A stretch of DNA of 64,000 nucleotides, taken from NCBI RefSeq assembly GCF_900119915.1, contig NZ_LT635455.1:1550001-1614000 (forward strand), in the 5' to 3' direction. Shown piece by piece: positions 46,668-64,000 of the stretch (position 1 is the first letter of the stretch; each line of letters opens with the position of its first letter). Origin of the DNA: Olsenella timonensis. Lineage in GTDB: Bacteria; Actinomycetota; Coriobacteriia; Coriobacteriales; Atopobiaceae. The notes below the pieces were generated by a model. That model was not told where the DNA came from. It saw only the letters and a program-made list of their open reading frames with translations, and did not search any database. A program made the position numbers and the translations under genes.

Positions 46668-47393
46668 ATGGTCACCAACGCGCACATGAACACCAGCGCG
46701 CACCCGCGCATGAGGGTCGCGCCCAGGCGCTACGTCACGCGCCGTCGGGCGAGAAGGGCGGGGACGCTCGTGCTGGCGTCGGTCGCGGCGGCGCTCGCGG
46801 TGCTCGCCGTCCTCGTCGTCGGCCTCTGGTCCGTCCCCGCCGCCGACGCGGGCGCCGATACCGACGGCGCGGGAGACGTCTCGACCCCGCGCTCTGAGTG
46901 GCGCGCCGGCGAGGTCCCCTACCTCTACCAGACGGACCCGGCCTGGGCGGACCATCCCTACGCGGGCGGCACCGTCGAGAAGAACGGCTGCGGCCCGACG
47001 TGCCTCTCGATGGTCTACGTCGCGCTCACCGGACGGGGCGACCTCGACCCGGCAGGCATGGCGGACCTCTCGGAGCGGGGCGGCCACACGTCTGGCGGCA
47101 TGACCTCCTGGACCCTCATGACCGACGGGGCCGCGGAGCTCGGGCTCTCCTCGGAGGAGCTCCCCGCCGACGCGGACGCCGTGCGCGAGGCGCTGCGGTC
47201 CGGCAGGCCCGTCATCTGCAGCGTTCGACCGGGCGACTTCACCACCACGGGTCACTTCATCGTACTCGCCGGCATGACCGAGGGCGACCAGGTCATCGTG
47301 CGCGACCCCAACAGCGCCGAGCGCAGCTCGCATCCCTGGGACCTCGAGCGCGTACTCGGGCAGTGCGCGAACCTGTGGACGTTCTCAGCGTGA
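46668..47393 (+). CDS. membrane-anchored C39-like cysteine peptidase
   Basis: 241 residues. Short basic N-terminus, one membrane segment (TLVLASVAAALAVLAVLVVGL), a Gly/Asp linker, then a Peptidase_C39_2 domain outside the membrane: WADHPYAGGTVEKNGCGPTC with the catalytic Cys, GHFIVLAGM with the His and VIVRDPNS as Asn/Asp. It would cut peptides or murein links outside the cell; substrate unknown. A strong AGGGAGGGG lies before ATG 46668. The paralogue at 62198 has lost the Cys. Confidence 0.88.
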   Translation: MVTNAHMNTSAHPRMRVAPRRYVTRRRARRAGTLVLASVAAALAVLAVLVVGLWSVPAADAGADTDGAGDVSTPRSEWRAGEVPYLYQTDPAWADHPYAGGTVEKNGCGPTCLSMVYVALTGRGDLDPAGMADLSERGGHTSGGMTSWTLMTDGAAELGLSSEELPADADAVREALRSGRPVICSVRPGDFTTTGHFIVLAGMTEGDQVIVRDPNSAERSSHPWDLERVLGQCANLWTFSA

Positions 47394-59670: not shown

Positions 59671-59894
59671 TGCGCAGTCCTCCATGGGTCCGGGACGAAT
59701 GACATGGCCCGCCGGACGTCCGGCGGCAGCTTTTTATCATAGCGCAGCCCGCCGTCGAGGGGGGCGGCTCCGCGACCGCCGGCCCCGCGGCCGTCCACGG
59801 ACTCACCACGTTACCAAGGGCGGACGAGAAGGACGGCGCGCCAGCACGTATAATGGATGCGTCTGTGGAGCTTTGTCCCGTTTCAGGAGGGTTC

Positions 59895-62060
59895 ATGGGA
59901 ATCAGAACGCGCCGTGCGCGGGCCCACTCGAAGACGCACTTCGTGGGCTTCGGCCTCGCCGGGGTGCTCGGCTTCATCGCGCTTCTCTGCGTGACGCTCG
60001 CGCTCTCGCTGGGGGCCGTGGTGTCCACCTGGCTCGAGGACCTGCCCGACTACACCTCCGCCGACGCCTTCCTCGTCGCCGAGCCCACACGCGTCTACGA
60101 CGCCGACGGCAACGAGATCGTGGCGTACTACCTGCAGAACCGTCGCTCCGTGACGCTCGACCAGGTCTCCGACTACGTCATCAAGGGCACCATCGACACC
60201 GAGGACAAGCGCTTCTACCAGCACAACGGCGTTGACCCCGAGGGCATCGCCCGTGCCGCCGTGGGCCAGGTGTTCGGCGGCGGCGAGCAGGGCGGCGGCT
60301 CCACGATCACGCAGCAGCTCGTGCGCTGGACGGTCCTCTCCGACGAGCAGTTCGAGAACACGCTGCGCCGCAAGGTCCGCGAGGCCTACATCGCCATCCA
60401 GATGGAGAAGACGTACACCAAGGACCAGATCCTGAACATGTACCTCAACACCATCTTCTACGGCAACGGCGCCTACGGCATCGAGGCCGCCGCGATCACC
60501 TACTTCAACAAGAGCGCCGCCGACCTCACCCTGAACGAGGCGGCGACCCTCGTGGGCATCCCCAACTCGCCCACCTACTACGACCCCTTCACGAACTACG
60601 AGAACTGCAAGAACCGCCGCAACCTCGTCCTCGCGCGCATGCTCGAGGCGGGCGACATCACGCAGGAGGAGTACGACGCGACGGTCGCCGAGGAGATCCC
60701 GCTCAACCCCGGCGAGCTCACCGACTCCGAGAGCGCCTACCCCTACTTCACCGACTACGTGCGCAACCTGCTGCTCCAGGACTTCTCGTCCGACACGATC
60801 GCCCAGGGCGGCCTCAAGGTCTACACGACGCTCGACCCCGCCAAGCAGGCGGCGGCCGAGCAGGCCTGCGCCGAGCGCGTCGAGGCCTCGGGCGACCCCG
60901 ACATCGACGCCGCGCTCGTCTCGATCGACAACTCCAACGGCTACATCGTGGCCATGGTGGGCGGCCAGAACTACGGCAACGACACCGAGGCGGGCCAGAG
61001 CTCAATCAACATGGCGACCACGCCGCGCCAGACGGGGTCGAGCTTCAAGGCGGTCGTGCTCACCGCGGCGCTCGAGGCGGGCATGAGCCCCACGGTGCGC
61101 ATCAACTGCCAGGCCACGATCCAGGTCACGCCCACGTGGGCGCCGAGCAACATCGAGCGGGCAAACTACGGCGTCATCACCCTCCAGAGGGCGACCGCCG
61201 TCTCCTCCAACACCGGCTACGTCCAGGTTGCCGAGGCCATCGGCATCGACAAGGTCGCCGACATGGCCTCGCGCCTCGGCATCGACTCGACCATCGAGCC
61301 CGTCCTCTCCTCGGCGCTCGGCACCTCCGAGATCTCCCCGCTCGAGATGGCCGAGGCCTTCTCCACGCTCGCCAACGGCGGCGTCCACCGCAACCCCGTC
61401 GCGATCACCCGAATCGAGGACCGCAACGGCAACGTGGTCTACGAGCACCAGGACGACCCGCAGGAGGTCGTGGACTCCGCCGTCGTCGAGGAGGCGACCA
61501 ACATCCTCGAGACCGTCATCACCGAGGGCAGCGCCACCAACCTGAGGAGCTACTTCCTCCAGAACCAGCCCGTCGCGGGCAAGACCGGCACCACCGACAA
61601 CTACAACAACCTCTGGTTCTGCGGCTACACGCCCCAGCTCACGACCGCGGTGTGGGTCGGCTGCATCGAGAACGGCAACCAGCGCGTGTACTACCAGGGC
61701 GGCACCGGCAGGACGGCGACGCTGCCGATTCCCATCTGGGGCATCTACATGAACGCCGCGCTCGAGGGCGTGGAGCGAGCCGAGTTCCCGACCTCCGACC
61801 ACGAGGTCGAGTACGAGCCGAACGACTCCTGGGACTTCATCGCCACGAGCTCCTCGGTCAACACCGAGGGCTGGGAGGAGGAGACCGAGAAGGAGACGGA
61901 GGAGACCGAGACGCCGACCGAGCCGGTGACCCCCACCGAGCCGGAGACCCCGCCCGAGCCGGAGACGCCGCCCGAGCCGGAGACCCCGACAGACCCGGAG
62001 CCGTCGGACCCGGAGACCCCGCCCGACCCCGAGAATCCGCCCGAGTCGGAGACCCAATAG
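59895..62060 (+). CDS. class A penicillin-binding protein (PBP1-type)
   Basis: 721 residues. N-terminal membrane anchor (about 17-45), then glycosyltransferase 51 (DTEDKRFYQHNGVDPEGIAR, GGGSTITQQLVR, KTYTKDQILNMYLNTIFYGN) and transpeptidase: active Ser near 381 (RQTGSSFKAVV), SSN near 437 (AVSSNTGYVQV) and KTGTT near 562. After the catalytic core, an acidic Pro/Glu/Thr tail of about 80 residues (TEPETPPEPE repeats) is exposed outside. Builds and cross-links murein. Plus-strand ATG 59895 with AGGAGG. The gene ends in a strong hairpin at 62088-62129. Confidence 0.95.
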   Translation: MGIRTRRARAHSKTHFVGFGLAGVLGFIALLCVTLALSLGAVVSTWLEDLPDYTSADAFLVAEPTRVYDADGNEIVAYYLQNRRSVTLDQVSDYVIKGTIDTEDKRFYQHNGVDPEGIARAAVGQVFGGGEQGGGSTITQQLVRWTVLSDEQFENTLRRKVREAYIAIQMEKTYTKDQILNMYLNTIFYGNGAYGIEAAAITYFNKSAADLTLNEAATLVGIPNSPTYYDPFTNYENCKNRRNLVLARMLEAGDITQEEYDATVAEEIPLNPGELTDSESAYPYFTDYVRNLLLQDFSSDTIAQGGLKVYTTLDPAKQAAAEQACAERVEASGDPDIDAALVSIDNSNGYIVAMVGGQNYGNDTEAGQSSINMATTPRQTGSSFKAVVLTAALEAGMSPTVRINCQATIQVTPTWAPSNIERANYGVITLQRATAVSSNTGYVQVAEAIGIDKVADMASRLGIDSTIEPVLSSALGTSEISPLEMAEAFSTLANGGVHRNPVAITRIEDRNGNVVYEHQDDPQEVVDSAVVEEATNILETVITEGSATNLRSYFLQNQPVAGKTGTTDNYNNLWFCGYTPQLTTAVWVGCIENGNQRVYYQGGTGRTATLPIPIWGIYMNAALEGVERAEFPTSDHEVEYEPNDSWDFIATSSSVNTEGWEEETEKETEETETPTEPVTPTEPETPPEPETPPEPETPTDPEPSDPETPPDPENPPESETQ

Positions 62061-62087
62061 CGCACCACCGAACAGCACGCAGGCATA

Positions 62088-62129
62088 CGCAACGGGCGCC
62101 GCTCCCCGATTGGGGCGGCGCCCGTTGCG
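62088..62129 (+). terminator. strong hairpin after PBP1 gene
   Basis: Perfect 15-bp arms CGCAACGGGCGCCGC and GCGGCGCCCGTTGCG with a 12-base loop (CCCCGATTGGG-like), 28 bases after the PBP1 stop. There is no T-run, as is usual in high-GC actinobacteria. It separates PBP1 from the next gene. Confidence 0.75.
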
Positions 62130-62197
62130 TTGCCCCCTCCCTCCTGCCGTATCATGCGATGAGTGGAACCTTGCGAACTGCTCTTCTCGGAGGACGC

Positions 62198-63289
62198 ATG
62201 ACGTACAACGATCGCGACGCTCGACTGCGCCAGGGCTCGGGCCCGCGCTCAGGCTCTTCTCGCCCCCACGGCCAAGGTGCGCGGGGCCGCGTCCCCTCCC
62301 AGGGCGCCTATCACGGCCCGCGCGGCACGAGGCAGCGTCCCGCCGGCCCGCGCGGCTCGTCCGGTCCGGGCTACCCGCTGCGCGCGCGCAGCATCAATTT
62401 CCAGAGCGGCCGCGCACGCCGGATGAGCGCCAACCGCCGCCTGCTCATCCTCGGCGCGCTTGCGCTCGTCATCCTCGTGCTTATCGTGGTGGGCATCTCG
62501 AGCTGCGTGCGCGGCTGCAGCGCCGAGCAGCAGTCCGCCGAGACCAACCCCGTCGACGAGCGCGTCGCCGCGGGCGTCGACGAAGACCTCACGAACCAGT
62601 TTGCCGCCGAGCTCGACCAGGGCGAGAAGCTCGCGCAGATCGCCGCCAACGCAGACGCCTACGAGAACCAGGACCTGCTCGCGCTCGCGCTCGCCCAGCC
62701 CGACGCCATCGACTTCGTCGCCGCCTACCCCGAGGCCGAGAAGACCGCGCAGCCCTACGGCGAGGACGTGAGCGCCGGGACCGTCCCCGAGCTCGTCTGC
62801 TGGGACGAGCGCTGGGGCTGCGTCGACTACGCGGGCGCGCCGCTCGCGCTCACCGGGTCCGGCCCAACCTCCCTCGCGATGGCCTACATGGCGCTGACCG
62901 GCAACGGGGACCGCACGCCGGCGGACTTCGCCCAGGCCGTCACCGACGCCGAGGCGGCGAGCGGCGACTCGCTCATGTCTGGGACGTTCCTCACCGACTC
63001 CCTGGGCGAGTACGGTCTCTCCTGCTCGACGTACACCTCGAACGAAGAGAACCTCACCCAGGTGCTCGACACGGGCACCTACCTGCTCGTCGAGGCGCAG
63101 GCCGGGACGCTTACCGACGCTGCCCACTGGGTCATCGTCGTGACCGAGGGCTCGGACGGCTCGCTCACGGTCTACGACCCCACCTCTCCGGAGGTCAGCG
63201 CGCACCCTTGGGACCCCGCGACCATCGCGGGCGCCACCAACACCCTCTATGCGATCAGCGCGGCCGAGGGCGACAGCGCCACGGAGTGA
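62198..63289 (+). CDS. membrane-anchored C39-like protein without the catalytic Cys
   Basis: 363 residues. A 70-residue Gly/Arg/Pro-rich cytoplasmic segment, one membrane helix (LLILGALALVILVLIVVGIS), then an outside domain of the Peptidase_C39_2 type: ELVCWDERWGCVDYAGAPLA then ALTGSGPTSLAMAYMALTGN. The Cys that is catalytic in 46668-47393 (NGCGPTC) is Ser here (GSGPTS), while the His (DAAHWVIVV) and VYDPTSPEVSAHPW are kept. It cannot be an active peptidase of that type; a binding or regulatory role, perhaps for PBP1, is inferred from position. Confidence 0.85.
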   Translation: MTYNDRDARLRQGSGPRSGSSRPHGQGARGRVPSQGAYHGPRGTRQRPAGPRGSSGPGYPLRARSINFQSGRARRMSANRRLLILGALALVILVLIVVGISSCVRGCSAEQQSAETNPVDERVAAGVDEDLTNQFAAELDQGEKLAQIAANADAYENQDLLALALAQPDAIDFVAAYPEAEKTAQPYGEDVSAGTVPELVCWDERWGCVDYAGAPLALTGSGPTSLAMAYMALTGNGDRTPADFAQAVTDAEAASGDSLMSGTFLTDSLGEYGLSCSTYTSNEENLTQVLDTGTYLLVEAQAGTLTDAAHWVIVVTEGSDGSLTVYDPTSPEVSAHPWDPATIAGATNTLYAISAAEGDSATE

Positions 63290-63328: not shown

Positions 63329-63646
63329 TCAGCGGCGGCGCAGCTTGACGGCGGTGCCCGAGCAGCAGGTCATGATCATGCCCTCGAAGGTCTCGTAGCC
63401 GATCCTGGCCCCCACGATGGCGTCGGCGCCGAGCGCGGTGGCGCGCTGCTCCATCTCGCCGAGCACCTCGGTGCGCGCGGCCTGCAGCTCCTCCTCGTAG
63501 CCGGCCGAGCGGCCGCCGAAGATGTTGCGCACGCTCGCCCCGATGTCGCGGAACATGTTGATGCCGCTCACGGCCTCGCCGGTGACGATGCCGAGATATG
63601 CGGTGATCTCACAGCCCTCGACGGAGTTGGTGGTCGTAACGATCAT
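63329..63646 (-). CDS. UPF0145 (YbjQ-like) putative heavy-metal-binding protein
   Basis: 105 residues, complete YbjQ/DUF74 fold: [40 protein letters not shown] and [14 protein letters not shown] are diagnostic. It forms pentamers and is annotated as metal-binding, without a proven role. ATG 63646 overlaps the stop of the upstream histidine kinase (ATGA), so it is the second gene of that operon. Confidence 0.95.
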
Positions 63647-64000
63647 CTCTGGCTCCCTTCGTGCGACGGGAGGGGGCGCTCCCCCTCCATCGTCAGCGTA
63701 ACGGTAAGCTCGGGGCCGTGCAGGCGGGCGGAGAGCGCCATCCCCTGGGCGGCAGCAAGCTGGCTGGCAACGGCGAGCCCCAGCCCGGAGCCGGCCGTCG
63801 CGCGCGAGGCGTCCGCTTGGTAGAAGCGCTCGAAGAGACGCTCGGCATCGATTGCGGCAGGGTCCGCCACCGGGTTCGAGAACTCCGCGACGACGCGGCC
63901 GCCCCCGCCCGCCTGGCGGGCGGTCACCCTGAGGGGCCCGGACCCGTGGCGCAGCGCGTTGACGGTGAGGTTCTCCACGATGCGCGCGAGCGAGTCGGCG
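63643..64000 (-). CDS. sensor histidine kinase, 5' part outside window
   Basis: The last 118 codons or so of a histidine kinase ATP-binding domain; the rest is beyond the window end. N box ([18 protein letters not shown]), F box ([18 protein letters not shown]) and G box ([20 protein letters not shown]) are intact. Such kinases sit next to a response regulator gene, expected further upstream (beyond 64000). Coupled to UPF0145 by a 4-base overlap. Confidence 0.92.

Follow-up and report, generated by a model that had tools for sequence, protein, structure and literature searches.

The window analysed here, by which we mean the whole stretch of 64,000 nucleotides from Olsenella timonensis, encodes a membrane protein with a papain-like domain in which the catalytic Cys of Peptidase_C39_2 relatives is replaced by Ser. 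Judged by its pattern of conservation, the clade formed by this protein and its counterparts throughout the family is neither a decaying relic nor the old enzyme. With a probability of about one half, we regard the protein as a pseudopeptidase, i.e. a peptide-binding, non-cleaving, membrane-anchored and family-wide Ser-for-Cys derivative of C39_2 peptidases. In such a protein, the Ser-His-Asp cleft would still bind a peptide or a ligand resembling a peptidoglycan stem outside the cell and would no longer form an acyl-enzyme. The protein would then serve as a receptor or tether, with its basic tail reporting or anchoring inside the cell. The ligand class itself is guessed from the closest fold and the location of the domain.

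Protein layout, active-site residues and fold

Searching the window's genome with the query matched two genes only, the Ser-type gene itself and a Cys-type paralogue with 34% identity over the domain (E 7e-24; Table 1). The query reads G-S221-G-P-T-S where the paralogue has GCGPTC, and His310 and Asp327 are both present, which bears out the sequence-only reading on the replacement of Cys by Ser with retention of His and Asp. The oxyanion Gln is also gone from the query (LVCWDE with Cys201, versus YLYQTD in the paralogue). The paralogue matches the Pfam profile Peptidase_C39_2 at E 3e-18. For the query, PF13529 gave no match even at E 1 and the curated cut-off is not reached; the Ser-type member L063 likewise had no match at E 0.1, although a few Ser-type members do exceed the cut-off (in genomes G002, G003, G005 and G031).

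Table 1. Features of the Ser-type gene, its upstream neighbour and its paralogue in the window
Feature	Position	Strand	Basis
Cys-type paralogue, PF13529 Peptidase_C39_2 (GCGPTC, Gln, His, Asp)	46668..47393	+	
Class A penicillin-binding protein PBP1 (Transgly + Transpeptidase), upstream neighbour	59853..62060	+	
Long G+C-rich hairpin without T-run, intergenic between PBP1 and Ser-type gene	62082..62134	+	
Ser-type C39-like membrane protein CDS, 363 aa	62198..63289	+	ORF; ATG with GGAGG upstream
Basic R/G/P/S-rich N-terminal tail, residues 1-82, predicted cytoplasmic	62198..62443	+	positive-inside rule; topology inferred
Single transmembrane span, residues 83-100	62444..62497	+	hydropathy
Juxtamembrane SSC (I-S-S-C with residue 100), lipobox-like	62498..62506	+	
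C39_2/papain-like domain, residues 191-357 (approximate bounds)	62768..63268	+	
Cys201, equivalent to the oxyanion Gln of Cys-type relatives	62798..62800	+	
Ser221 codon (GSGPTS motif)	62858..62860	+	
His310, triad residue	63125..63127	+	
Asp327, triad residue	63176..63178	+	

A model of the domain from seven sequences (the query and six others at 68-82% identity) reached a pTM of 0.73 and a mean pLDDT of 68, and did better than a longer model of 263 residues, which was poor (pLDDT 55). Ser221 starts a helix in this model, His310 opens a strand and Asp327 follows directly after the next strand. The best match among solved structures is the pseudomurein endoisopeptidase PeiR (8z4h; Z 13.6, rmsd 3.3, 146 residues aligned), followed by PCAT1 C39 (12.0), ComA (11.4), HlyB (11.1) and the C39-like 3erv (11.0), with staphopains and others not far below. 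Sequence searches of solved structures gave a weak best E of 0.0067 for the Ser-type profile and nothing below 0.26 for the paralogue. From the model, the assignment to the papain-like fold class is safe, whereas the ranking among the structural neighbours is not.

The last 60 residues of the query tail before the membrane span carry a net charge of +13 and consist to 62% of R, G, P and S. This pre-span stretch is basic in 115 of 115 Ser-type loci (net +8 to +15, median +12, versus a median of +7 in 74 other-type loci), with charges taken from stop-to-stop frames, so that some rows may hold residues upstream of the true start. In line with the positive-inside rule, the papain-like domain is probably located outside the cell; both the extracellular domain and the Gly/Arg/Pro-rich tail, as described from the letters alone, are thereby supported. 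A Cys is found within the 12 residues surrounding the span end in 113 of the 115 loci (in one, L082, it lies inside the span), and a lipobox-like pattern, defined more broadly than the textbook one and reading I/V-S-S-C in most cases, marks the outer span end in 105 of 115. The tail ahead of this lipobox-like Cys exceeds the usual length of a signal peptide. Lipidation or a disulphide at the juxtamembrane Cys is possible, and the protein is a candidate for an atypical lipoprotein. A regular expression for a spacer motif matched only 49 of 115 Ser-type rows and was dropped.

Distribution, origin and constraint of the Ser-His-Asp site

Within the family, 132 of 140 genomes contain a match to the query, corresponding to 32 of 35 genera and to 99 of 101 good genomes. 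Two good genomes of a single genus (G059, G060) have no query match at all, so the Ser-type protein is not indispensable everywhere. We examined 116 Ser-type loci, one per genome and from 31 genera, together with four second copies. This covers all but 16 of the 132 matching genomes, the one with the weakest match (G030, E 2e-5) being among those 16. The six loci named by a pattern scan belong to Olsenella, Atopobium and Thermophilibacter, which points to Atopobiaceae as the probable family. Among the 120 aligned rows, position 221 is Ser in 116, i.e. in every Ser-type locus, and Cys in four (L105, L114, L119, L120), all of which are second copies in genomes that also have a Ser copy and all of which keep the Gln. 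The question raised by the sequence-only reading, whether Ser is fixed in orthologues or a Cys persists there, is thus answered in favour of fixation, and the presence of Ser across the family rules out a local mutation or a sequencing error. His and Asp occur in all 119 rows that reach these positions and in 115 of 115 Ser-type rows, L116 being excluded from the latter as it ends at a contig end before the His.

At the level of the order, a profile search matched 295 of 395 genomes. As an outgroup, we chose 80 loci from other families of the order ourselves, guided in part by best matches, which is not a random sample; 77 of these rows were kept in the tree, 67 of them with Cys, His and Gln. 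Loci from the same family (L212-L217), a duplicate of L187 (L208) and domain matches below 90 bits (a fragment of L168, L210, L211, L240) were dropped before tree building. Of the 82 Cys-His rows, 80 have Asp as the third residue of the site and two have Asn. In a FastTree phylogeny of 207 domains, all 115 Ser-type sequences of full length group into a single clade that contains no Cys tip (support 0.83). An IQ-TREE analysis of 46 Ser-type and 62 other sequences gave this clade an ultrafast bootstrap of 88, and its union with L105 a value of 100. L105 is the second copy of genome G020, alongside the Ser copy L085; it is the Cys/Gln sister of the Ser clade and matches PF13529 at 5e-12. The Ser clade is hence nested among Cys-type Peptidase_C39_2 relatives, as common descent predicts. 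The simplest history for these sequences would be a single change from Cys to Ser at the base of the clade with no reversion since. Within G020, L105 and L085 provide a natural pair for comparison.

The constraint on the site stands out against the depth of the clade, which has a tree length of 33 (FastTree) or 27 (IQ-TREE) substitutions per site and members whose domain identity to the query falls as low as 33%. Invariance is confined to eight of 178 columns (D203, W206, G220, S221, H310, D327, P328 and W338), and S221, H310, D327 and D203 share the minimum site rate to four digits (0.2243; ranks 1, 2, 5 and 5 among the 178 sites). The Ser221 codon is TCN in 112 rows and AGY in three, the tree implies three switches of codon class, and at each of them Ser was kept or regained. 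This pattern indicates that the Ser-His-Asp site is under selection. In contrast, position 201, the site of the oxyanion Gln, ranks 109 of 178 by rate: Gln occupies it in 82 of 82 Cys-His relatives and in 1 of 115 Ser-type sequences, which instead have Asp (41), Cys (34), Asn (18), Thr (16) or one of G, S, A and M. The covariation signals of residue 201 were strongest with the adjacent residue 202 and with variable sites, and no pocket could be read from them. Since relatives throughout the family retain Ser, His and Asp, the altered pocket is evidently useful. The loss of Gln in 114 of 115 sequences, on the other hand, argues against acyl-enzyme catalysis and ordinary proteolysis, and classical cysteine-protease chemistry appears unlikely from these replacements.

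Two other lineages of the order have also lost the Cys, and in these the His is lost as well in 10 of 10 sequences. One comprises L173 and L180, in which Ser replaces the Cys, and the other L207, L209, L239 and L243-L247, with Ala, Gly or Ser in its place. The Gln is still present in eight of these ten Cys-less, His-less sequences, and the domain remains recognisable. The Ser clade shows the opposite pattern, with His always present and Gln gone in all sequences except one. We consider this contrast telling rather than statistical, because two events are compared with one. As a counter-case, the 32-bit match L211 combines Cys with a Gly that is aligned in place of the His. Looking at the two lineages themselves, L173 and L180 have Ser at both the Cys and the His site and have lost the Gln too. 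The eight sequences of the second lineage, from another family of the order, combine A/G/S at the Cys site and S/A/I at the His site with retained Gln and Asp, and by these residues form a fully dead pseudopeptidase clade.

These lineages also bear on the view that Ser-His-Asp is a purely structural relic, a hydrogen-bond network that holds the fold without any ligand. D203, W206, G220, P328 and W338 are just as invariant and are near-invariant in Cys types too, as a structural role would suggest. However, the other two lineages shed both Cys and His with the domain still recognisable, and we regard a mere relic as improbable.

A more serious rival to the pseudopeptidase is an active enzyme in which Ser acts as nucleophile of a papain-fold Ser-His-Asp triad and performs hydrolysis or acyl transfer on a wall or peptide substrate. 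The strict conservation of Ser, His and Asp and the retention of Ser through the codon-class switches fit a needed hydroxyl and count against the pseudopeptidase, as a site used only for binding seemingly need not hold Ser so strictly; moreover, both lineages that clearly died lost the His. Natural Ser triads using N-delta do exist, although they are extremely rare according to the available text of PMC9825947, and the accessible parts of PMC10318531 describe Ser-based papain-like families as possibly active and report that bleomycin hydrolase and congopain retain non-negligible activity when their Cys is changed to Ser. Against such an enzyme stands the replacement of the oxyanion Gln by D, C, N, T, G, S, A or M. 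In addition, clan CA families mostly have N-delta triads, a geometry that Ser almost never uses: Ser triads are almost always of the N-epsilon type, and papain is N-delta (PMC9825947, as far as its available text goes). The argument for activity from a negative pocket in the accessible parts of PMC10318531 gains nothing here, as the net charge of the domain fails to separate the two types (median -13 in Ser-type and -11 in Cys-type domains), and we rejected it. Taken together, we rate an active Ser enzyme as rather unlikely. An active member would be a rare exception. If true, a whole family would have converted a C39 cysteine peptidase to a serine enzyme of the cell envelope, retained by nearly all members and equipped with a remodelled oxyanion hole, in contrast to the nearly universal use of the other His nitrogen by Ser triads. 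The label "inactive" given to the domain by the sequence-only reading goes further than the evidence: the loss of Gln does speak against ordinary proteolysis, but the Ser-His-Asp site, unlike that of the two Cys-less lineages, is invariant.

Gene neighbourhood and the Cys-type paralogue

The same reading had suggested that the protein is a binding partner or scaffold of the murein synthase PBP1 encoded next to it. In 78 of 116 Ser-type loci, PBP1 does lie upstream in the same orientation, and a probably extracellular domain with a basic tail would suit a dedicated partner. Nevertheless, among the loci with at least 2 kb of upstream sequence (n=78), PBP1 is present in 49 and was not found in 29, where a flank of ~3 kb may miss it. 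Nearly all remaining PBP1-positive loci come from a group of 30 loci with short flanks in the window's genus, 28 of which have PBP1 and two of which (L019, L022) start at contig ends. Furthermore, 54 of the 78 loci with PBP1 have an argR gene on the opposite strand that separates PBP1 from the Ser-type gene. Within the fetched stretch, argR occurs at 81 of 116 Ser-type loci, 80 times on the opposite strand (for the copy L063:2263-2730, the Pfam match has E 2e-14). The ArgR DNA-binding domain has no match in the window's genome, from which the arginine repressor has apparently been lost, so the direct adjacency of PBP1 seen here may stem from this loss. The 143-base gap between the two genes (62058-62200) folds strongly (-73.6 kcal/mol, z -5.9), largely as one long hairpin, and a pattern scan revealed neither a sigma-70-like promoter nor a T-run terminator. 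We take the proximity of PBP1 as conserved gene order rather than as evidence for an operon; a PBP1 scaffold is demoted from the main reading and, as a dedicated partnership, seems quite unlikely.

No tRNAs were found in the 12 loci scanned. Downstream of the Ser-type gene in the window lie convergent genes for a YbjQ-type putative heavy-metal-binding protein (63329-63646, minus strand) and for the end of a histidine kinase (63643-64000, minus strand).

As with some pseudoenzymes, the Ser-type protein might instead regulate its active Cys-type paralogue, and the window's genome does carry one gene of each type. Across the family, though, PF13529 matches in only 91 of 140 genomes, a few of these matches being the Ser gene itself, and in genus g15 it is found in 0 of 5 genomes with the Ser gene in 5 of 5. 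The occurrence of the Ser gene without PF13529 in this genus rules out regulation of the paralogue as a general role, and we consider it highly improbable overall.

Comparison with known papain-like proteins

Searches for literature on Peptidase_C39_2 in Coriobacteri returned no paper. Judging by titles and the beginnings of abstracts, the matches listed for Atopobiaceae or Olsenella with peptidoglycan or peptidase, and for pseudopeptidases, C39 family peptidases and PBP contain nothing on the Ser-type protein, and neither does the literature found for C39 peptidases and Eggerthella. The closest known relatives are the Cys-type Peptidase_C39_2 proteins of the same order, which share His, Asp, W338 and the flanking motifs with the Ser clade and possess both the Cys and the oxyanion Gln that the Ser clade has lost. 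In the C39 domain of ComA, this Gln contributes to the oxyanion hole (available text of PMC8277102). PeiR, the best structural match, has only 15% identity and is, according to the accessible source, a Cys enzyme from a virus of methanogens.

A pseudopeptidase of the kind proposed here would resemble the C39-like domain of HlyB or the Plasmodium protein SERA5. HlyB likewise has a C39 fold in which the Cys is gone and the His is kept, and it is non-proteolytic; members of this type differ in having Tyr, Leu or Asn at the Cys position and in being fused to an ABC transporter (available text of PMC8277102). SERA5 is papain-like, carries Ser where the Cys would be and keeps His and Asn. It differs in being eukaryotic, in belonging to family C1 and in that its non-enzymatic role rests on experiment: one study reports no protease activity and no phenotype from Ala at the Ser site, so that SERA5 can be indispensable without the Ser hydroxyl, and it can bind peptides (accessible parts of PMC4671257). 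Reports on SERA5 activity conflict, however, and in the natural Ser cases congopain, EnCL and silicateins the replacement had a limited effect on activity or brought a new one (available text of PMC9825947).

The replacement of Cys by Ser in papain-like proteins is described as intriguing and poorly explored in PMC10318531. The portion of that work at hand names menin, APC5867, DUF2145, DUF2272 and DUF3750 as families in which a Ser is conserved in place of the Cys, along with the remaining two active-site residues; these are other families, and C39_2 is not named among them in that portion. Papain-like families that conserve Ser are thus already in print, and what is new, as judged from our sequence comparisons, is an unusually well polarised C39_2 case. 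In comparison with the named Ser families, the Cys-type sister of the Ser clade is known, and both the loss of Gln and the codon switching are measured. This gives a polarised bacterial case of single origin, with about 27-33 substitutions per site since then and two dead lineages as contrast, which opens two questions to direct testing: whether an N-delta triad can function with Ser, or why a site that is dead should remain invariant.
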